64,000 nt of DNA from Corynebacterium bouchesdurhonense (GTDB lineage Bacteria > Actinomycetota > Actinomycetes > Mycobacteriales > Mycobacteriaceae). The stretch is from assembly GCF_900078305.2 (NCBI RefSeq), contig NZ_LT546028.1, forward strand, positions 814,570 through 878,569. Direction: 5' to 3'. The translations under genes were made by a program, and so were the position numbers. The stretch's first letter is position 1. Every line of letters begins with the position of its first letter. Positions 5,275-61,163 of the stretch are shown here, in pieces. The notes under the pieces are model-generated. The model was given only the letters and a program-made list of their open reading frames with translations. It was not told the DNA's origin and ran no database searches.

Positions 5275-5288
5275 GCGTCGACAAGCAA
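5275..5288 (+). repeat. 14-bp motif copy (exact), rplJ leader
   Basis: GCGTCGACAAGCAA between the leader attenuator and the rplJ ribosome binding site, flanked by GGG before and GCCCC after. Confidence 0.85.
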
Positions 5289-6433: not shown

Positions 6434-7387
6434 ATGCGGAAATCTCGGGCGCTCCCCGCGCTGCTTGTCGGACTCGGCATCGCCCTCATCGTGGGCGGGT
6501 TGCTCGCTCCGAGGGCATTGCTTATCGACGCCCGCTTTCCACTGTCCCTAACCAACACCACGTGGACCATGTCGGACCCGGACGGCGTGCGCGACGGGCG
6601 CCGCGAGCCGGTGGTGCGGCAGCTGCACATGGAGGTGCGCAACCCCTCCGACGGGGACACGGTGAACGTGCGCGTGGGCGACTCCCTGCGCGCGGGCGTG
6701 GCCGGCGCCGACTTTGACAACCTGGTGTCCGCCTCCACCTGGGCCTTCGCCTTCGACCGCGTGACCGGCGAGGTGCCCGAGCCCGCCAGCGCGCAGCTGG
6801 TGATGGCCATGCCCGCTGCCGAGGTGCCCGTCGAGGGCGTGTGGTTGAAGTTCCCCGTGGACGTGGAGCAGCGCAGCTACGACGTCTTCGACCCGGTGCT
6901 GCGCGGAGCGGCTCCCGCCGAGTTTGTGGGCGAGGACGAGCTGGAGGGGCGCAGCGTGTACCGCTTCCACCAGCGCATCGCGCCTACCAACCTGGCGCAG
7001 CGCTTCGCCGACGAGCGCAACACCACGTACGTGGAGGGGCCCGGCGGGGAGCCGGTGCGCGCCTTCCTCTTCCACTCCGCCGAGCGCGTGCTGACGGTGG
7101 ATCAGGTGAGCGGCCTCGTGGTGGGCATCGATGAGAAGGTGGATGACTACTACGGCGACGCGCAGGGCCGCGGCATCCGCAACGTGGTGACGTACGACGC
7201 GCGTGCGGACGAAGCCCAGGTGCGCGCCCTGCTCGGGGAGCTGGCCGGCGTGGAGCCTGAGTCCCGCGGCCGCTCGATCTCCTGGGCCGTCGCGGCCGCC
7301 GGCGCGCTGCTCGCACTGGTGGGGCTTGCCATGGCCGCGGCTCGGCGTCGCTCCCGCGAGACCCGCCCGCCGCGGCACGCGCGCTGA
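6434..7387 (+). CDS. DUF3068 (PorA-family-like) membrane protein
   Basis: A 317-aa protein of the DUF3068 family, which is found mainly in Corynebacteriales and is often annotated only as a porin PorA family protein. It has an N-terminal signal anchor (ALPALLVGLGIALIVGGLLA), a large extracytoplasmic domain of about 240 residues and a C-terminal membrane helix (WAVAAAGALLALVGLAMAA) with an Arg-rich cytoplasmic end. The biochemical role is not known to me. The ATG at 6434 is preferred over the GTG at 6425 because a -10 box ends 7 nt before it. It stands alone between rplL and rpoB on its own promoter. Confidence 0.8.
   Translation: MRKSRALPALLVGLGIALIVGGLLAPRALLIDARFPLSLTNTTWTMSDPDGVRDGRREPVVRQLHMEVRNPSDGDTVNVRVGDSLRAGVAGADFDNLVSASTWAFAFDRVTGEVPEPASAQLVMAMPAAEVPVEGVWLKFPVDVEQRSYDVFDPVLRGAAPAEFVGEDELEGRSVYRFHQRIAPTNLAQRFADERNTTYVEGPGGEPVRAFLFHSAERVLTVDQVSGLVVGIDEKVDDYYGDAQGRGIRNVVTYDARADEAQVRALLGELAGVEPESRGRSISWAVAAAGALLALVGLAMAAARRRSRETRPPRHAR
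6518..6531 (-). repeat. 14-bp motif copy (exact), inside DUF3068 gene
   Basis: TTGCTTATCGACGC on the plus strand. It encodes LLIDA using the uncommon Leu codons TTG and CTT. It is bracketed by GGGC and GCCC. Confidence 0.85.
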
Positions 7388-7738: not shown

Positions 7739-10700
7739 TTGGCAGTCTCAAACCAGACCATGAACCAGACCAGGTCAGTGGCTGAAATCCCCGGGGCGCC
7801 CGAGCGCTACTCGTTCGCCAAAATCGCCGAGCCCATCTCCGTCCCGGGTCTCCTCGACGTGCAGCTCGAATCCTTCGCGTGGCTCGTGGGCACGCCGGAG
7901 TGGCGCGAGCGCGAGCAGGAGCTGCGCGGCGACGCGGCGCGCGTGACGAGCGGCCTCGAGGACATCCTCGAGGAGATCTCCCCGATCCAGGACTACTCGG
8001 GCAACATGAGCCTGTCCCTGTCGGAGCCGCGCTTCGAGGACGTGAAGTACTCCATCGAGGAGGCGAAGGACAAGGACATCAACTACTCCGCGCCCCTCTA
8101 CGTCACCGCGGAGTTCATCAACAACGAAACGCAGGAGATCAAGTCCCAGACCGTCTTCATCGGCGACTTCCCGCTGATGACGGACAAGGGCACCTTCATT
8201 GTTAACGGCACCGAGCGTGTCGTGGTCTCCCAGCTCGTGCGCTCACCGGGCGTGTACTTCGATGAGACGATTGATAAGTCCACCGAGCGCCCGCTGCACT
8301 CCGTGAAGGTCATCCCGTCCCGCGGCGCCTGGCTCGAGTTCGACGTGGACAAGCGCGACACCGTGGGCGTGCGCATCGACCGCAAGCGCCGCCAGCCGGT
8401 GACCGTGCTCCTGAAGGCCCTGGGCTGGACCACCGAGCAGATCACGGAGCGCTTCGGCTTCTCCGAGATCATGATGGCCACCCTGGAGTCCGACGGCGTG
8501 GCCAACACCGACGAGGCCCTGCTGGAGATCTACCGCAAGCAGCGCCCAGGCGAGCAGCCGACGCGCGACTTGGCGCAGTCCCTGCTGGAGAACGCCTTCT
8601 TCAAGGCCAAGCGCTACGACCTTGCGCGCGTGGGCCGCTACAAGGTCAACCGCAAGCTGGGCCTGGGCGGGGACCACGAGGGTCTGATGACGCTGACCGA
8701 GGAGGACATCGCCACCACCCTCGAGTACCTCGTGCGCCTGCACGCCGGGGAGACCGAGATGAAGGCGCCGAACGGCGACATGATCCCGATCAGCACCGAC
8801 GACATTGACCACTTTGGCAACCGCCGCCTGCGCACCGTGGGCGAGCTGATCCAGAACCAGGTCCGCGTTGGCCTGTCCCGCATGGAGCGCGTGGTCCGCG
8901 AGCGCATGACCACCCAGGACGCGGAGTCCATCACCCCGACGTCCCTGATCAACGTGCGCCCGGTCTCCGCCGCCATCCGCGAGTTCTTCGGCACCTCCCA
9001 GCTGTCGCAGTTCATGGACCAGAACAATTCCCTGTCCGGCCTGACCCACAAGCGCCGCCTGTCCGCGCTGGGCCCGGGCGGCCTCTCGCGCGAGCGCGCC
9101 GGCATCGAGGTGCGAGACGTGCACCCGTCCCACTACGGCCGCATGTGCCCGATCGAGACCCCCGAGGGCCCGAACATCGGCCTGATCGGCGCGCTCGCGT
9201 CCTACGCGCGCGTGAACCCCTTCGGCTTCATCGAGACGCCGTACCAGAAGGTGGACAACGGCCAGCTCACCGACCAGATCGACTACCTCACCGCCGACGA
9301 GGAGGACCGCTACGCCATCGCGCAGGCGGCCACCCCGATGGATAAGGACCGCAACCTCACCGGCGAGCGCATCGAGGTGCGCCTGAAGGACGGCGACATC
9401 GGCGTGGTCGGCCCGCAGGGCGTGGACTACCTGGACATTTCCCCGCGCCAGATGGTGTCCGTGGCCACCGCCATGATTCCGTTCCTGGAGCACGACGACG
9501 CGAACCGTGCCCTCATGGGTGCGAACATGCAGAAGCAGGCCGTGCCCCTGCTGCGCTCCGAGGCGGCCTACGTGGCCACCGGTATGGAGCAGCGCGCGGC
9601 GTACGACGCGGGCGACACGGTGATTACCAAGAAGGCCGGCGTGATTGAGAACGTCACGGGCGATTTCATCACCGTGATGGACGACGAGGGCGTGCGCGAC
9701 ACCTACATGCTGCGCACCTTCGAGCGCACCAACCAGGGCACCTGCTACAACCAGACCCCGATTGTGAGCCAGGGCGAGCGCGTCGAGGCCGGCCAGGTCA
9801 TCGCCGACGGCCCGGGCACCAAGAACGGCGAGATGGCGCTCGGCCGCAACCTGCTCGTGGCGTTCATGCCGTGGGAGGGCCACAACTACGAGGACGCCAT
9901 CATCCTCAACCAGCGCGTGGTGGAGGAGGACATCCTCACCTCCGTGCACATCGAGGAGCACGAGATCGACGCCCGCGACACCAAGCTGGGTGCCGAGGAG
10001 ATCACCCGCGAGATCCCGAACGTGTCCGAGGACGTGCTGAAGGACCTGGACGAGCGCGGCATCATCCGCATCGGTGCGGACGTGCGCGACGGCGACATCC
10101 TGGTGGGCAAGGTCACCCCGAAGGGCGAGACCGAGCTGACCCCGGAGGAGCGCCTGCTGCGCGCCATCTTCGGCGAGAAGGCCCGCGAGGTGCGCGATAC
10201 CTCCCTGAAGGTGCCGCACGGCGAGACCGGCAAGGTTATCGCGGTGCGCCGCTTCTCCCGCGAGGACGATGACGATCTGGCCCCGGGCGTGAACGAGATG
10301 ATCCGCGTCTACGTTGCTCAGAAGCGCAAGATCCAGGATGGCGACAAGATGGCTGGCCGCCACGGCAACAAGGGTGTCGTGGGCAAGATCCTCCCGCAGG
10401 AGGACATGCCGTTCATGGCGGACGGCACCCCGGTGGACATCATCTTGAATACCCACGGCGTGCCGCGCCGTATGAACATCGGCCAGGTCCTCGAGGTGCA
10501 CCTGGGCTGGCTGGCCAAGGCCGGCTGGACCGTGAACCCGGACGACCCGAAGAACGCCAAGCTGCTGGAGACCCTGCCGGAGCACCTCTACGACGTGCCG
10601 GCCGAGTCCCTGACCGCCACCCCGGTGTTCGACGGCGCGACGAACGAGGAGATCGCGGGCCTGCTCGCGAACTCCAAGCCGAACCGCGACGGCGACGTGA

Positions 10701-11230
10701 TGGTGGACGGCAACGGCAAGACCACGCTGTTCGACGGCCGCTCGGGCGAGCCGTACAAGTACCCGATCTCGGTGGGCTACATGTACATGCTCAAGCTGCA
10801 CCACCTCGTGGACGAGAAGATCCACGCCCGCTCCACCGGCCCGTACTCCATGATTACCCAGCAGCCGCTGGGTGGTAAGGCCCAGTTCGGTGGCCAGCGC
10901 TTCGGCGAGATGGAGGTGTGGGCGATGCAGGCGTACGGCGCCGCCTACACCCTGCAGGAGCTGCTCACCATCAAGTCGGACGACGTGGTTGGCCGCGTGA
11001 AGGTGTACGAGGCCATTGTGAAGGGCGACAACATCCCGGATCCGGGCATTCCGGAGTCCTTCAAGGTGTTGCTGAAGGAGCTGCAGTCCCTCTGCCTGAA
11101 CGTGGAGGTGCTCTCCACCGACGGCACCCCGATGGAGCTCGACGGCGACGACGACGAATTCGACCAGGCAGGATCCTCCCTCGGCATTAACCTCTCGCGC
11201 GACGAGGGGTCCGCGGCGGATACGGCCTAG
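7739..11230 (+). CDS. rpoB: DNA-directed RNA polymerase subunit beta
   Basis: Beta subunit of RNA polymerase, 1163 aa, a normal actinobacterial length. The start is the TTG at 7739, with GGAAGGA at 7724-7730. Conserved blocks run from [17 protein letters not shown] at the N-terminus through the rifampicin-binding cluster at about residues 418-450 ([25 protein letters not shown]) to the C-terminal [19 protein letters not shown]. The cluster keeps the Asp, His and Ser positions usually changed in rifampicin-resistant strains, so the target site looks wild type. It is followed by rpoC after a 119-bp gap that holds two inverted motif copies. Confidence 0.98.
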
Positions 11231-11247
11231 CGCCAGGTTCGAAGGGG

Positions 11248-11261
11248 GCGTCGGCAAGCAA
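11248..11261 (+). repeat. 14-bp motif copy (exact), rpoB-rpoC gap, left arm
   Basis: GCGTCGGCAAGCAA, preceded by CGAAGGGG. It directly abuts an inverted copy at 11262-11275. Confidence 0.88.
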
Positions 11262-11275
11262 TTGCTTCTCGACGC
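11262..11275 (-). repeat. 14-bp motif copy (exact), rpoB-rpoC gap, right arm
   Basis: TTGCTTCTCGACGC. Together with 11248-11261 it makes a near-perfect inverted repeat able to fold into a hairpin between rpoB and rpoC. There is no T run after it, so if it acts on transcription it would be a pause or processing site, not a classical terminator. Confidence 0.88.
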
Positions 11276-11349
11276 AACCCTTTCGAAAAACGAACTAGCA
11301 CTAATAAACGAACACCCTTCCGAACGTGGAAGGTGAAAGGGATATTTAC

Positions 11350-15348
<3,999 letters not shown>

Positions 15349-28695: not shown

Positions 28696-28971
28696 ATGCC
28701 ACGCAGCCTGAAGAAGGGCCCGTTCGTCGATGAGCACCTCCTCAACAAGGTGGATGCTCAGAACGAGGCCGGCACCAAGCAGGTTATTAAGACCTGGTCT
28801 CGCCGCTCGACCATTCTCCCCGACTTCATCGGTCACACCTTCGCCGTCCACGACGGCCGCAAGCACGTGCCGGTGTTCGTCGACGAGTCCATGGTCGGCC
28901 ACAAGCTCGGTGAGTTCGCACCAACCAAGACCTTCAAGGGTCACGTTAAGGAACAGAAGGGACGTCGATAA
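28696..28971 (+). CDS. rpsS: 30S ribosomal protein S19
   Basis: 91 aa. It starts [16 protein letters not shown] and has the [12 protein letters not shown]-terminal signature. GAGGTAAG lies upstream. Its stop codon is part of a 14-bp motif copy that runs into the rplV start codon. Confidence 0.97.
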
Positions 28972-28975
28972 GCAA
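28962..28975 (+). repeat. 14-bp motif copy (13/14) spanning rpsS stop and rplV start
   Basis: ACGTCGATAAGCAA. The TAA inside is the rpsS stop and the last A begins the rplV ATG. It may be partly a coincidence of conserved coding sequence (Arg-Arg-stop). Confidence 0.6.
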
Positions 28976-37561: not shown

Positions 37562-39160
37562 CTAACCGGCTGCGATTGCTACGTGATCCGCGAAGCGGTC
37601 GTAATCCCCCCGGATCTGCGCCAGCGGGTCCACCACGGCCGACTCCGACGCGGCCGCCACCTCGCGCTGGATTGCGGCCCTGGTGCGCCGCTTCACGCCG
37701 GCGCCGATCACCCCGCCGAAGACGGTGGTGGTGAGCCCTACCAGGAGGCCGGTGAGCAGGCCCGCCATGATCAACAGCGTGGGCACCGGCCACCCCTCAA
37801 CCTCCGGCACGAGGTCCCCGCCGAAGATCGGGGCCAGTGCGCCGGGGACAAAGGCGGCGGCCAGGTACCACAGCACGCCTACCAGCGCGGCGAGCAGCGC
37901 GAGCCACTGCAGCACGGTGAGGGCGGACCAGCCCCTCGACGGCTCCGCCGGCAGCTTGGTGCGGGCCACCGCGCGGTCCAGCTCCGCCGGCACCGCCCGC
38001 GAGATCTCCTCCGCGCGGTCCTCCACGGCGGCCGCCCACGCGTGCGGCAGGCCCTCGGCCGCGGCCGCGGCGTACCCGCGCACGCCGCGGTTGGCCACCG
38101 CCTTGGACGGGGCGTCCAGCTCCGGCATCGAGGTGCGGTGCACGCCGATCTCGTCTGGGGCCTCCCGCAGCCCCAACCGCTTCAGCGGATCCGGCCGGAA
38201 CTTGGTCACCCAGGACGTGAGCAGCCACCCGGTGCGCTCGTGGAGGCGCTTGCGGTACGCCGCCGCGGTGGTCTCCGCGATGCGGTCGGCACCCGCGGCC
38301 TGGGAGAGGGCCGCATCCATTTCGCGCTTCGCTTGCTTGTCGACGCCCCCCGCCCGACCAAGTCCCACATACTCCCCGGTCACAGCCCGGATATCCGCCT
38401 CGATGCGCGCTGACTGGGCGGTGTGGGCGCGCGCCACCTTGGTGATGGCGGCGCGCAGGTCGTCCACACCGGCGCCGGTGAGCGTGGAGGTTGGGATGAC
38501 CTGGACACCGCGTAGGCCGTCGCGGACAAGCAACTGCTCAAATGAGCGGGCAACCACGTCTATGTCCGCGCCGCGCAGAAGGTCGGACTTGTTGAGCACG
38601 GCGAGGGTGACGGCGGAGTGCGCGGCGTGGGGGCGGATGAACTCGTCGTGGATGACGCTGTCCGCGTACTTCTCGGGGTCCGAGACCCATACGAGGATGT
38701 CCACTTGGCCGGCGAGGCGGGTGGCAATCTCGCGGTTGGACAGCTCCACCGAGTCGAAATCCGGCAGGTCCAGGAGGATCAGTGGGCCGGCGCCGGGGGC
38801 GAACTCGCCCTGGCGCGGGCGGCGGTCCTCCACGCCCAGCCAGTCCAGCAGCTGCTCGGACCCCTCCGGCTGCCAGATCGCGGCCAGCGGGGAGGAAGTG
38901 GTGGGGCGCCTGGCGGCGGCTTTGCCCAAGTCCTCGCCCACGACAGCGTTGAACAGGGACGTCTTGCCGGAGCCCGTGGCGCCGAAAAAGCCGACTACGG
39001 TGTGCTCGGCCGAGAGGGAACGGCGCTCCGCCCCGGCGGTTGCCACCCGCTCGAGGCGGGCCAGCTCGTCCTGCGGGAGGTAGGGGCGCGCGATGTCCGC
39101 GGCTTCGCCGAGCGCGGCCAGCCTGTCCCCCAGCGGGGCCTTGCGCTTGAACACCGCCAT
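37562..39160 (-). CDS. Dynamin-like GTPase with two membrane helices (second of a pair)
   Basis: A 532-aa large GTPase. G1 is FFGATGSGKTS (residues about 58-68), G3 is LLDLPDFDS and G4 is NKSD. A helical middle region is followed by two membrane helices (WLALLAALVGVLWYLAAAF; TLLIMAGLLTGLLVGLTT) and a helical C-terminus. Its ATG overlaps the stop of the preceding GTPase by one base, so the two are probably made together and act as a pair, as with actinobacterial DynA/DynB-type proteins that remodel membranes. The division or membrane-repair role is inferred from the family. A 14-bp motif copy encodes VDKQ in its middle. Confidence 0.78.
   Translation of the reverse strand: MAVFKRKAPLGDRLAALGEAADIARPYLPQDELARLERVATAGAERRSLSAEHTVVGFFGATGSGKTSLFNAVVGEDLGKAAARRPTTSSPLAAIWQPEGSEQLLDWLGVEDRRPRQGEFAPGAGPLILLDLPDFDSVELSNREIATRLAGQVDILVWVSDPEKYADSVIHDEFIRPHAAHSAVTLAVLNKSDLLRGADIDVVARSFEQLLVRDGLRGVQVIPTSTLTGAGVDDLRAAITKVARAHTAQSARIEADIRAVTGEYVGLGRAGGVDKQAKREMDAALSQAAGADRIAETTAAAYRKRLHERTGWLLTSWVTKFRPDPLKRLGLREAPDEIGVHRTSMPELDAPSKAVANRGVRGYAAAAAEGLPHAWAAAVEDRAEEISRAVPAELDRAVARTKLPAEPSRGWSALTVLQWLALLAALVGVLWYLAAAFVPGALAPIFGGDLVPEVEGWPVPTLLIMAGLLTGLLVGLTTTVFGGVIGAGVKRRTRAAIQREVAAASESAVVDPLAQIRGDYDRFADHVAIAAG
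38333..38346 (-). repeat. 14-bp motif copy (exact), inside GTPase gene
   Basis: TTGCTTGTCGACGC on the plus strand. On the coding (minus) strand it reads GTC GAC AAG CAA within GVDKQ. Confidence 0.82.
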
Positions 39161-57358: not shown

Positions 57359-57934
57359 ATGCCTACCCCGAAGAAGGGTGCCCGTCTCGGAGGGTCCGCC
57401 AGCCACCAGAAGCACATTCTGTCCAACCTGGCCCAGTCCCTGTTCGAGCACGGTGCAATCAAGACCACCGAGGCCAAGGCGAAGATGCTTCGCCCCTACG
57501 CCGAGAAGCTCATTACCAAGGCGAAGCGCGGCACCCTGGCTGACCGCCGCGCTGTGGCCGCTGAGCTGCCGAACAAGGCCATCGTTGCCCACCTGTTCAA
57601 CGACCTGGCCCCGCTGTTTGCGGGCCGCGACGGCGGCTACACCCGCACCATCAAGCTGGAGAACCGTTCCGGCGACAACGCCCCGATGGTGCAGATCTCG
57701 CTGGTGACCGAGGAGACCGTCTCTTCCGAGGCCACCCGCACCGCCCGCGCCGCCGCTTCCCGCGAGGCGCAGGCCGCTGCTGAGGTCGAGGCTCCGGCCG
57801 AGGAGACCACCGAGGTTGTCGAGGCTCCCGAGGCCGCCGAGGCTCCGGCCGAGGAGACCACTGAGGTTGTCGAGACCCCCGAGGCCCCCGAGGCCACCGA
57901 GGCTCCGGCCGAGGAGACCACCGAGGAGAAGTAG
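57359..57934 (+). CDS. rplQ: 50S ribosomal protein L17 with repeat-bearing acidic tail
   Basis: 191 aa compared with about 125 for typical L17. The normal body is present ([69 protein letters not shown]). From about residue 125 the tail is Ala/Glu/Thr/Pro-rich with three near-identical units APAEETTE(V/E), encoded by three exact 23-bp direct repeats. It ends the alpha operon. Confidence 0.97.
57788..57921 (+). repeat. Three direct repeats encoding the L17 tail
   Basis: An identical 23-bp unit (starting GAGGCTCCGG) occurs at 57788-57810, 57839-57861 and 57899-57921, spaced 51 and 60 bp, in frame. Repeat-number change could alter the tail length without a frameshift. Confidence 0.85.
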
Positions 57935-58101: not shown

Positions 58102-58947
58102 ATGAACACGGACACGGTGCGCATCCGCCTCGACATCGCCTACGACGGCACGGATTTCCACGGCTGGGCCCGCCAGACCTCGGGCGTGCGCACGGTGCAG
58201 GCGGAGATCGAGGACGCGCTCACCCTAGTGCTCCGCACCCCGGTCTCGCTCACGGTGGCGGGGCGCACGGACGCCGGTGTCCACGCCTCCGCCCAGGTCG
58301 CCCACGCCGACATCCCCCGCGCGAGTTTGGAGCAGCGGTCGCTTCGGGGTGATGCGGGTGCTCTTGTGCGTCGATTAGCAAAGCTCCTCGAACCGGACGT
58401 GCGGGTCTTCGCAGTGCGGGAGGTGCCTTTGCTTTTCGACGCCCGCTTTGCAGCACTCTCCCGCCACTACACGTACAGGGTGACTACGCATCCCGCCGGC
58501 GCGCTACCCACGCGGGCGCGGGACACCGCCGTGTGGGGCAAACCGGTGGACTTGGCCGCCGCGCAGCAGGTGGCGGACGCGCTGGTGGGCCTGCACAACT
58601 TCGCCGCCTTTTGCAAGCCGCGCGAGCACGCCACCACCATCCGCGAGCTGCACGCCTTTCGCTGGCGCGACGCCTCCACACCCCACGAGCCGGACCTGTA
58701 CGAGGCGGAGATCACCGCGGACGCGTTCTGCTGGAACATGGTGCGCGCCATGACGGCCGCGTGCCTGACGGTGGGGGAGGGCCGCCGCGACCTCGCGTGG
58801 GCGCTGGCGCTGCTGGAGAAGACGTCGCGCGACCCCTCGGTGCAGCTGGCGCCGGCGAAGGGGCTGACGCTTGCCGGCGTGGACTACCCGCGGGATGAGG
58901 ATTTGGCGGCGCGCGTGGAGGTGACGCGGGACCGCCGCAGCCTCTAG
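58102..58947 (+). CDS. truA: tRNA pseudouridine synthase A
   Basis: 281 aa. Modifies uridines 38-40 of the tRNA anticodon stem. The catalytic Asp is in GRTDAGVHA (residues about 54-62), the conserved YDGTDFHGWARQ is near the N-terminus, and NMVRAMTAACLTVGEGR follows. The ATG at 58102 is favoured by the -10 box spacing; the longer in-frame start would be translated through the 13-bp repeats. It carries two inverted copies of the 14-bp motif in the coding sequence. Confidence 0.95.
   Translation: MNTDTVRIRLDIAYDGTDFHGWARQTSGVRTVQAEIEDALTLVLRTPVSLTVAGRTDAGVHASAQVAHADIPRASLEQRSLRGDAGALVRRLAKLLEPDVRVFAVREVPLLFDARFAALSRHYTYRVTTHPAGALPTRARDTAVWGKPVDLAAAQQVADALVGLHNFAAFCKPREHATTIRELHAFRWRDASTPHEPDLYEAEITADAFCWNMVRAMTAACLTVGEGRRDLAWALALLEKTSRDPSVQLAPAKGLTLAGVDYPRDEDLAARVEVTRDRRSL
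58368..58381 (+). repeat. 14-bp motif copy (13/14), inside truA
   Basis: GCGTCGATTAGCAA, encoding RRLAK with the very rare Leu codon TTA. It is the left arm of an inverted pair with 58429-58442. Confidence 0.78.
58429..58442 (-). repeat. 14-bp motif copy (exact), inside truA
   Basis: TTGCTTTTCGACGC, encoding LLFDA with the uncommon codons TTG and CTT, 47 bp after the copy at 58368. Confidence 0.85.
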
Positions 58948-59024: not shown

Positions 59025-61163
59025 ATGAGCGCGATTGCCGCCGCCTGGTTCGCCGTCGCCTTCTTCCTGGTGCCCGGGTTCCTCATTGCGTGGGTGGCCG
59101 GCATGCGCGGCGGCGAGGCGCTGTGGGCGGCGCTGCCCGTCACGTTCGGCGTGATCGGCATGGGCGGTTGGTTGTGGGGGCTGACCAGCGCGCGATTCAC
59201 CTTGTGGACGTACGGGGTGAGCCTTGCCATGGCGCTGGGGCTCGCCGCCGCGTGGCGCTACGCGTTCGCCCGCCGGGCGCGCTCGCGGGGCGCCGCTGGG
59301 TGGCGCGAGGCGCTCTTCCCCGGCGGATTCAGGGCCAGGCTTGCCGACGCCTCCTGGGTCCTGCCCACCGCAGGCATGGCCGTCGGCGCCTGGATGGGCG
59401 CGAACAACCGGCTGCAGTGGCAGCTGCGGGTGCCCCACGGCACCTGGAACATCGTGCAGGGCTGGGACGTGCAGTGGCACGCCAACGCGGTGCGATTCAT
59501 CATGGAAACCGGCGTGGCCTCGGCGACGCGCATGGGCGAGCTGCAGAACCCTGAGACGCACGCGGCGTCGCTGTACCCGGTGGGCTACCACGCCGGCATC
59601 GCACTGTTTGCGGAGGCGGCGGGCCTGGAGCCCATCCCGGCCCTGAACATCGCGCAGGCCGTGCTACCGGCGCTGGCCCTGCCCATCTCCATGGGGTGTC
59701 TGGTGCTGGCGTTCATGCGCTCGCGGGGGCTGACCGCGCAGATCGGCGCAGGGCTCGCCGCCGTGGGCATCTACGCGGCGCCGCAGTTCCTGTGGATCTC
59801 GGATTACGTGGGCATGTGGCCCTTCTTGTTCGCCATGGCCATGACCGGGATCGTGGTTTGGCTGTTCCTGAGCGTGCCTGGGCGGCACGCGGCGGCGCTG
59901 CCCGCGGCCCTCGGCTTTTTGGGCGTGCTCACGGTGCACCCGTCATCGGCCACCGTGGTGGTGCTGGCGGTGGCGCTGAGCTGGCTCACGTCCACCCTGG
60001 TGCGTCCGGAGCGCGGGCGCCTCGCGGACACGCTGTGGCTGGCGGTCCCCGCGCTCGGGGCGTCGCTGGCCTTCCTGCCCCAGCTGCTGGCCGGCTCCGA
60101 GCAGGCCGAGGAGGTCTCCGGCTGGCAGGCGGCGGAGAACGCCGAGAACACCGACGGCTGGCACTCCACCTTCTTCATGGACACCCGCCACGTGGCCGAG
60201 TTCTTCCCAGACTTCGACCCCACGATCCTGCTGTGGCTGGCGGGCTTCGGGGCGCTCGCGCTCATCCTCTGGCGCGGCCAGGTGTGGCCGGCGCTGTTCT
60301 ACGCGGTGAGCGTGTGCGTGGCCGCCAACGCCGTCACGCCGGTGGGCGGCACCTGGGGCGACCTGCTCTCGGCCGTGGGCAACCTGCACTACAACACGCA
60401 GCACCGGCTCATCCTGCCGGTGGTGATGTGCGTCTACGCGGCGGCCGCCATCGCCGTGGCGGTGATGCTGCGGGCCATCCTGCTCGCACCCGTGGCGGCC
60501 CGCAAGGACAGCGCTGTGGGCAGGCGCATCACGGCCGGCGCCTCGGTCGTGGTGGCGCTGGGCGTCGGCGCCTGGGCCGTGCCGGCCGTGCGCGACGCGG
60601 CTACCGCGGGGGCGCAGCACGCCTACTTCGGGTCGCGCGACGGCGGTCGCATGGTCACCGAGGAGGACCTCGCCGCCTTCAACTGGCTCGGCTCGCAGCC
60701 CGCCGCGTACGAGGGCTACACCATGGGCGACCCGGCGGACGGCCACTCCTGGATCTACGCCTACAACGGCGTACCCACGCTCACCCGCCACTACCTGGGC
60801 CCGGTGGGCTACCCGGGGGCGAAGTTCAGCATCCTCGCCGACGCGTCGGATTTCCTCGGTGAGGGTGTGCGCGGGGAGGCGTCGGCAAGCAATATCGCGG
60901 ACGAGGCCGCGCGGGACCTCGACGTGCGCTTCTACCTCGTCAGCCCCGGCCCCTTCTGGGCGTTCCAGCGCCCGCACCTGGAGCTCGAGCGGGGGCTGTG
61001 GCTCACGCGCGGCGTAACCCCCGTCTACCGCAAGGGCGACACGGTCATCTTCGCCGTCAACAGTGCGTTCAGCGCAGACGAGCTGAAGGAGCTGCAGCGC
61101 GACGCGGTGCGCCACGGCTCCGACGACTTCACCGAGCTCAGCGCGCCCGCCTCCGCCGGCTAA
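59025..61163 (+). CDS. Polytopic membrane protein (DUF6541-like)
   Basis: 712 aa with about 12 predicted membrane helices in residues 1-530 and a C-terminal soluble domain (about residues 530-712). The helices include AWFAVAFFLVPGFLIAWVAG, LPALALPISMGCLVLAFM and LFAMAMTGIVVWLFLSV. The topology and periplasmic loops resemble GT-C-like glycosyltransferases, and DUF6541 proteins are typical of Corynebacteriales, so a cell-envelope glycan role is possible but not shown. GGAGGCGAG precedes the ATG at 59025. A 14-bp motif copy lies in its C-terminal part. Confidence 0.72.
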   Translation: MSAIAAAWFAVAFFLVPGFLIAWVAGMRGGEALWAALPVTFGVIGMGGWLWGLTSARFTLWTYGVSLAMALGLAAAWRYAFARRARSRGAAGWREALFPGGFRARLADASWVLPTAGMAVGAWMGANNRLQWQLRVPHGTWNIVQGWDVQWHANAVRFIMETGVASATRMGELQNPETHAASLYPVGYHAGIALFAEAAGLEPIPALNIAQAVLPALALPISMGCLVLAFMRSRGLTAQIGAGLAAVGIYAAPQFLWISDYVGMWPFLFAMAMTGIVVWLFLSVPGRHAAALPAALGFLGVLTVHPSSATVVVLAVALSWLTSTLVRPERGRLADTLWLAVPALGASLAFLPQLLAGSEQAEEVSGWQAAENAENTDGWHSTFFMDTRHVAEFFPDFDPTILLWLAGFGALALILWRGQVWPALFYAVSVCVAANAVTPVGGTWGDLLSAVGNLHYNTQHRLILPVVMCVYAAAAIAVAVMLRAILLAPVAARKDSAVGRRITAGASVVVALGVGAWAVPAVRDAATAGAQHAYFGSRDGGRMVTEEDLAAFNWLGSQPAAYEGYTMGDPADGHSWIYAYNGVPTLTRHYLGPVGYPGAKFSILADASDFLGEGVRGEASASNIADEAARDLDVRFYLVSPGPFWAFQRPHLELERGLWLTRGVTPVYRKGDTVIFAVNSAFSADELKELQRDAVRHGSDDFTELSAPASAG
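60879..60892 (+). repeat. 14-bp motif copy (exact), inside DUF6541-like gene
   Basis: GCGTCGGCAAGCAA, encoding ASASN, preceded by GGGGAG. Confidence 0.83.

Follow-up and report, generated by a model that had tools for sequence, protein, structure and literature searches.

The window, a stretch of 64,000 nucleotides of Corynebacterium bouchesdurhonense (positions 814570-878569 of contig C18, in a 2.26 Mb genome of 18 contigs), carries the rpoB and rpoC genes one behind the other on the plus strand. The rpoB gene extends from 7739 to 11230 and ends in a TAG codon (11228-11230); its start is uncertain and may be the TTG codon at 7739 or a later start near 7778. The rpoC gene begins with a GTG codon and occupies positions 11350 to 15348. 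Both were delimited as open reading frames, by a gene finder and by tblastn, which was run against the rpoB ends of relatives for the former and against relatives for the latter. The named records that share this arrangement belong to Corynebacterium. A megablast comparison of the region with plasmids yielded distant rpoBC matches only, and no Rfam family matched at E values up to 1 between positions 7000 and 16000. Elsewhere in the window a tandem repeat with a 51-bp unit (57787-57926) overlaps a predicted gene.

The gap between the two genes contains two copies of a motif placed head to head. The first has the core CGTCGGCAAGC at 11249-11259 on the plus strand, within the 14-mer GCGTCGGCAAGCAA (11248-11261), and the second has the core CGTCGAGAAGC at 11264-11274 on the minus strand, within the 14-mer TTGCTTCTCGACGC (11262-11275). 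The two 14-mers abut with no spacer over 11248-11275, as the initial annotation had it, and the long inverted repeat described there was recovered in a repeat search as overlapping arms of 17 nt that are 88% complementary. The GGGG and CCC runs said to frame the pair do exist, as GGGGG at 11244-11248 and CCC at 11278-11280, but they lie opposite each other only partly. On the plus strand the RNA of the gap (11228-11330) folds with a z-score of -3.9, none of 200 shuffles being as good, and the predicted energy for the first 70 nt of the gap is -30.5 kcal/mol. The repeat search, the folding and the covariation described below all point to an intercistronic stem-loop at 11238-11287 on this strand that comprises both copies and their flanks. 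A second hairpin, CCTTCC-GAACGT-GGAAGG (11316-11333, plus strand), stands before the GAAAGGGA (GAAAGG) stretch that precedes rpoC; its stem is also seen on the other strand.

A dispersed motif in Corynebacterium

The core of both copies, CGTCGNNAAGC, occurs 1,235 times in the genome (630 and 605 by strand) compared to 65 reversed controls, and the longer CGTCGRNAAGCAA occurs 364 times (186 and 178 by strand) compared to a single copy of its reversed control. The window itself holds 31 cores, where a first-order Markov sequence would give 1.2, and 37 matches to the motif with up to 3 mismatches, 12.9 being expected. The motif is also strict. In a 464-kb sample made up of the window and twenty 20-kb stretches, CGTCGANAAGCAA is present 74 times, and each variant with one of the nine fixed core letters replaced is found 0-2 times. 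CGTCGA and AAGCAA are separated by a spacer of one only, with 0-1 copies for other spacings, and the core is looser at its two outer A's and at the A that follows CGTCG. In the host genome G prevails in the 30 nt upstream of the core (GC skew about +0.4 to +0.5) and C in the downstream flank; the flanks differ in samples from other genomes. A hairpin formed around the core of each single copy (GGGG...CCCC) was considered and rejected, the two flanks being uncoupled (2.46 versus 2.47 with shuffled partners).

Among the 257 cores of the sample, 210 lie inside predicted genes, 42 are intergenic and 5 straddle a gene border, with genes, as placed by our own simple gene finder, covering 88% of the sequence. 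One antisense frame dominates inside genes (125 of 210). Counted along the contig, with the origin not located, the cores show no strand polarity over 20 stretches of one contig (118 and 108), and both orientations are mixed in each copy-bearing stretch.

Preferential retention of the core is indicated by the one genome pair tested, G109 and G004, which share 96.3% identity over 166 kb: of 82 cores, 74 are preserved in the other genome, the figure for the sites of 400 permuted motifs being 657 of 859 (p = 0.0024). A 20-kb prophage stretch of the host genome (L004, C18:120001-140000) has no core at all, where 11.6 would be expected. Of the 20 proteins predicted in it, the six that were tested each match a phage family, with tape measure, major tail, capsid, portal and terminase represented; its terminase relates the prophage to the corynephages phi673 and BFK20, and its portal protein has an identical copy in a 39-kb IMG/VR contig. 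A viral locus identical to the prophage over the portal also lacks the core in 21 kb, and among the three next closest viral loci two have 2 cores each in 21 kb and one has none. Two corynephages, whose hosts may be motif-rich or motif-poor, contain no core in 84.6 kb, and eighty viral loci of mixed hosts contain 23 cores and 19 controls in 995 kb. Over-representation throughout the genome, equal numbers on the two strands, occurrence in genes as well as between them and under-representation in newly acquired DNA (here one prophage stretch) are what would be looked for in an uptake sequence, and all are found with this core.

The motif is widespread in the genus. Taking as motif-rich those genomes in which cores are at least four times as numerous as reversed controls, 104 of 151 Corynebacterium genomes are rich and 47 poor, six of the latter being intermediate (ratio 1.5-4). 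Outside the genus, 120 genomes of the order have 0-6 copies of the 13-mer, a number similar to that of its control. A species variant was found in G016 (L068-L071), where a T directly precedes CGTCG in 80% of 50 copies, and G009 (L064-L066) has a second repeated word, GATAGCGCACAA(C) or GATAGCGCGCAA(C), with 6-7 copies of each in 60 kb. A search for other dialects of the motif in Tad-bearing, motif-poor genomes, over 60 kb each, gave nothing in G014 and weak words in G132. In the motif-poor G039 (L250-L252), in which T2SSF is present, the words GATCCGCTCC, CGCGATCGCG and CCTCGCGCAG are over-represented and are possibly another dispersed element. In three motif-poor genomes the core is rarer than its reversed control (8 versus 61 in G081, 20 versus 73 in G072, 22 versus 54 in G066), reflecting either avoidance or composition.

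Competence genes and the nature of the motif

The initial annotation had likened the motif to uptake sequences, the marks through which certain unrelated bacteria know their own DNA, and the comparison stands up well where the motif is concerned. PMC7811141 (2020) ascribes strong uptake sequence preference to two families, the Pasteurellaceae and the Neisseriaceae, and characterises such sequences as abundant, changing by point mutation and scarce in acquired DNA; it also counts 1,465 nine-bp USS cores in Haemophilus influenzae. The Corynebacterium core, with its 1,235 copies, is similar in number to the USS of Haemophilus and the Pasteurellaceae, and like them it combines a core with looser flanks, changes by point mutation and is scarce in new DNA. 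The flanks of the USS are AT-rich, whereas the motif described here is actinobacterial, has a gapped core between a G-rich and a C-rich flank, and is a putative uptake sequence. The DUS of the Neisseriaceae differ from it in sequence; they resemble it in being genus-wide, in having species variants and in occurring both between genes and in coding regions. DUS act with the type IV pilus and ComP, while the Corynebacterium core would presumably act with a Tad/Flp pilus. No prior description of the motif or of a Corynebacterium uptake sequence was found in the open-licence part of PubMed Central, judged by listings and abstracts, and the four PMC papers that contain one of six 12-mer versions of the motif are unrelated by title.

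Genes that could take part in uptake are present in the host. By profile matches comEA adjoins comEC, and a tad locus encodes a TadZ/Ssd-like protein, TadA, two T2SSF proteins, a Flp-like DUF4244 peptide and two TadE-like proteins, with the matches of the TadZ/Ssd-like protein and of one TadE-like protein lying below the curated cut-off. The host ComEC (553 aa) has the Competence domain only. Transformation of the actinobacterium Micrococcus luteus requires tad genes (PMC4322843). Like the host, M. luteus is an actinobacterium with tad genes; the term 'uptake sequence' is absent from that paper, and transformation of Corynebacterium would be a prediction.

A comEC match over the cut-off was obtained in all 151 genomes, as was a comEA-type HHH match (143 over the cut-off), and since both genes are present in motif-poor genomes too, they fail to explain where the motif is found. 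A T2SSF match (E below 1e-7) was found in 99 of the 104 motif-rich and in 19 of the 47 motif-poor genomes (Fisher 3e-13), a contrast that stems mostly from one clade. On a tree, 1.6-1.8 independent pairs go in the same direction and 0.1-0.2 in the opposite one, the rest being equal, which is not significant; the 13-mer behaves similarly. As an explanation of rich and poor genomes, the presence of Tad is strong in raw counts but lacks significance on the tree. Five motif-rich genomes are without a good T2SSF match. One of them, G071, has 1,535 cores, is rated 100% complete and has no T2SSF match; it has possibly lost its tad locus recently. Judged by eye, the comEC frame often has a length of about 650-790 aa in the large clade of motif-poor genomes and of 450-600 aa in many of the motif-rich ones, though exceptions are numerous.

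We favour a reading in which the fixed core, flanked in the host by a G-rich upstream and a C-rich downstream sequence, would mark DNA for preferential uptake. Preferential uptake of core-bearing DNA and its recombination would in turn lead to accumulation of the core throughout the genome. The core might instead be a site bound by a protein that organises the chromosome or serves in repair or recombination (nucleoid, segregation, Chi-like), with no relation to uptake. The abundance of the core, its strictness, its retention and its absence from the prophage stretch would fit such a site equally well, and the failure of comEA and comEC to separate rich from poor genomes also speaks for it. KOPS and Chi motifs show strand polarity and are polar along the replichore, whereas the core has no strand bias in the genome or in the 20 stretches, the origin not being located. 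Its absence from 47 of the 151 genomes would need explaining if it were a host-wide site, and both its copy number and its turnover by substitution, set out below, resemble those of the USS as described in PMC7811141. We consider such a binding site possible but unlikely. That CGTCGNNAAGC is a DNA-uptake-type sequence of Corynebacterium, and that the rpoB-rpoC pair is a kept stem, hardly a terminator and likely intercistronic, seems to us rather probable on the whole.

The stem between rpoB and rpoC

The gap was compared in 141 of the 151 genomes, ten having no match, a weak match or a match outside those listed. In 17 of the 141 gaps the two cores, both exact, face each other head to head across a loop of 4-6 nt. 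The exact pair follows the rpoB stop codon at a distance of 6-18 nt, or directly in the case of G122. Two further genomes, G067 and G088, have a decayed pair. In G067 each core has been lost by one letter through a paired A-U to C-G change, and the predicted stem, now devoid of cores, consists of 14 pairs with a single mismatch among them. Other lineages have tail-to-tail versions, which are exact in G149 and G047 and closely paired with one mismatch in G045; nine of the 12 tail-to-tail rows are weak and support no claim alone.

With the cores split into 630 forward and 605 reverse, a simple calculation predicts about 0.17 head-to-head pairs for each spacer length in a genome. In the whole host genome there is one 13-mer pair whose spacer measures 0-8. 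A scan of 84,980 species genomes for the same pair with a spacer of 0-6 yielded 12 stretches. Corynebacterium records account for ten, and three of the stretches are the orthologous rpoB-rpoC gap. Neighbouring cores at most 60 nt apart number 7 in the 464-kb sample, where 9.9 are expected, and five of the 7 pairs are inverted; close inverted pairs are not enriched in this sample. Inverted pairs of the kind reported for the USS of Haemophilus (PMC5217627) are thus not customary in this genome. Taken by itself the rpoB-rpoC pair is less improbable; it is its maintenance in 17 of 141 genomes, each core being exact, that exceeds chance.

The stem was aligned in 18 of the 19 head-to-head rows, including that of the window; G122 was left out as its flank runs into rpoB. 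Of the stem cells, 81.9% are paired, compared to 29-54% when the arms are slid. The covariation score is 0.189 versus 0.097 in shuffles, a value that none of 500 shuffles reaches, although related rows may beat such shuffles without any structure. There are 27 double-changed cells versus 15.5 in shuffles, all but one in the flanks and at the NN positions, while the number of stem pairs with a double change (6 versus 5.6) and of pair types (17 versus 16.4) is not above that in shuffles. Seven invariant pairs are uninformative because the motif itself is fixed. The flanks beside the core covary, with GC/GC, GGG/CCC and GGT/ACC rows, whereas pairing is missing at the two NN positions in 6 and 9 of the 18 rows and at the three outermost flank pairs in 9-13. 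Conservation accompanied by compensatory change speaks for a role as a stem in RNA (or DNA), and within the local clade the alignment indicates that the stem is kept as a structure.

The second hairpin offers a further view of the gap. A hairpin before rpoC is present in 120 of the 141 genomes, compared to 7-12 of 141 in five shuffles, and 139 have GAAAGG or AAAAGG among the final 22 nt before rpoC. Of the 17 genomes with the exact pair 12 have no such leader hairpin, compared to 9 of the other 124 (Fisher 1.6e-8); the remaining five of the 17, to which the window's own genome belongs, have both hairpins. In four of the nine others without the leader hairpin (G149, G045, G047 and G091) the cores form tail-to-tail stems, the quality of which varies. 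On a quick tree built from 1.2 to 1.9 kb of rpoB/rpoC (140 rows, G081 being too short), 1.9 to 3.5 independent pairs agree with the association and 0 to 0.1 oppose it, depending on the definition of the stem; these are too few for significance. Wider definitions add weak tail-to-tail rows, three with one mismatch or nine with up to 3. Since the pair accompanies the loss of the leader hairpin, the data suggest that one stem can replace the other. In our view the gap requires a stem, and the motif pair is able to supply it: the two head-to-head copies would form a stem-loop in the rpoBC transcript, and this may take the place of the usual hairpin before rpoC.

The pair could also be a chance meeting of uptake-type copies that are kept by their own drive, perhaps perfected by template switching, with a stem that has no role. 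The expected 0.17 pairs per spacer length make such a meeting credible, and the near constancy of the core pairs in the stem is what drive by itself would produce too. A stem without a role would be harder to reconcile with the covarying flanks beside the core, with G067, which retains the stem without the cores, and with the loss of the leader hairpin that the pair accompanies, though not significantly on the tree. We regard this alternative as improbable, to a degree comparable with that of the protein-binding site.

A terminator is a good deal less probable still. The products of rpoB and rpoC are needed in equal amounts, and a terminator or attenuator lowering rpoC relative to rpoB, after the manner of the inverted uptake sequences of Haemophilus, would stand in an odd position between them. 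The pair has the G+C-rich stem of an intrinsic terminator and lacks the U tract directly after it: the sequence directly 3' of the pair is CAACCCTTTCG, with 2 T in its first 8 nt, and a terminator scan found no terminator-like site on the plus strand at the pair. Because of this missing U tract, it is hardly an intrinsic terminator. The strength of the stem is in favour of termination, as is the finding, in PMC5217627, that paired USS often form terminators in H. influenzae. Like the terminators made from inverted USS or DUS, the pair is head-to-head, follows a stop codon and has a strong stem; unlike them it has no U tract, lies inside an operon and is the one 13-mer pair genome-wide, close inverted pairs not being enriched. 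The doubt already voiced about a terminator at this place is borne out. Of the earlier interpretation as a whole, this doubt and the uptake-like character of the motif stand. The stem-loop is most likely an intercistronic stem that would act in RNA processing, in stability or in the insulation of rpoC translation; a pause site is likewise conceivable.

Turnover of the copies and implications

The 18 full copies in the window were set against three relatives, and 25 of the 54 comparisons give an alignment that spans the site. In 21 of the 25 the alignment passes through the site by identity or substitutions, and in 4, all intergenic, it is gapped. These alignments indicate that copies arise and decay mainly by substitution. 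Inside genes, the copies on the minus strand at 6518-6530, where it is the antisense strand, and at 58429-58441 have substitutions in relatives, and the core of that at 38333-38345, likewise on the minus strand, is kept in one relative and substituted in another. On the plus strand, the core of the copy at 28963-28975, which lies at a gene end before the next gene, is kept in three relatives. Three more full copies are also on the plus strand: the intergenic one at 5276-5288 falls in an alignment gap of the sole aligning relative, another intergenic one lies at 1417-1429, and that at 60880-60892 is identical to the first copy of the pair. Small inserted mobile elements of the REP or MITE type, which the dispersed repeats with extended flanks and the four gapped sites might bring to mind, can be dismissed with near certainty, given the 21 ungapped alignments, gaps without constant borders, and flanks that vary and are uncoupled on the two sides of a copy.

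The fuller reading, to which we give about even chances, is that Corynebacterium has its own uptake sequence, CGTCGNNAAGC, read by a competence pilus of the Tad/Flp type, and that the rpoBC pair has been adopted as an RNA stem able to replace the usual rpoC hairpin. The stem would then be an example of how an uptake-type sequence may be drafted into an RNA structure. If the reading is true, it would add a third, independent case of choosy uptake, in a Gram-positive genus and beyond the two families to which such preference has been ascribed. Natural competence would be predicted in many Corynebacterium species, and the motif would provide a handle for finding the receptor on the Tad pilus. Self-recognition in transformation would be absent from about a third of the sampled genomes of the genus, and why uptake becomes choosy would become testable by comparison.
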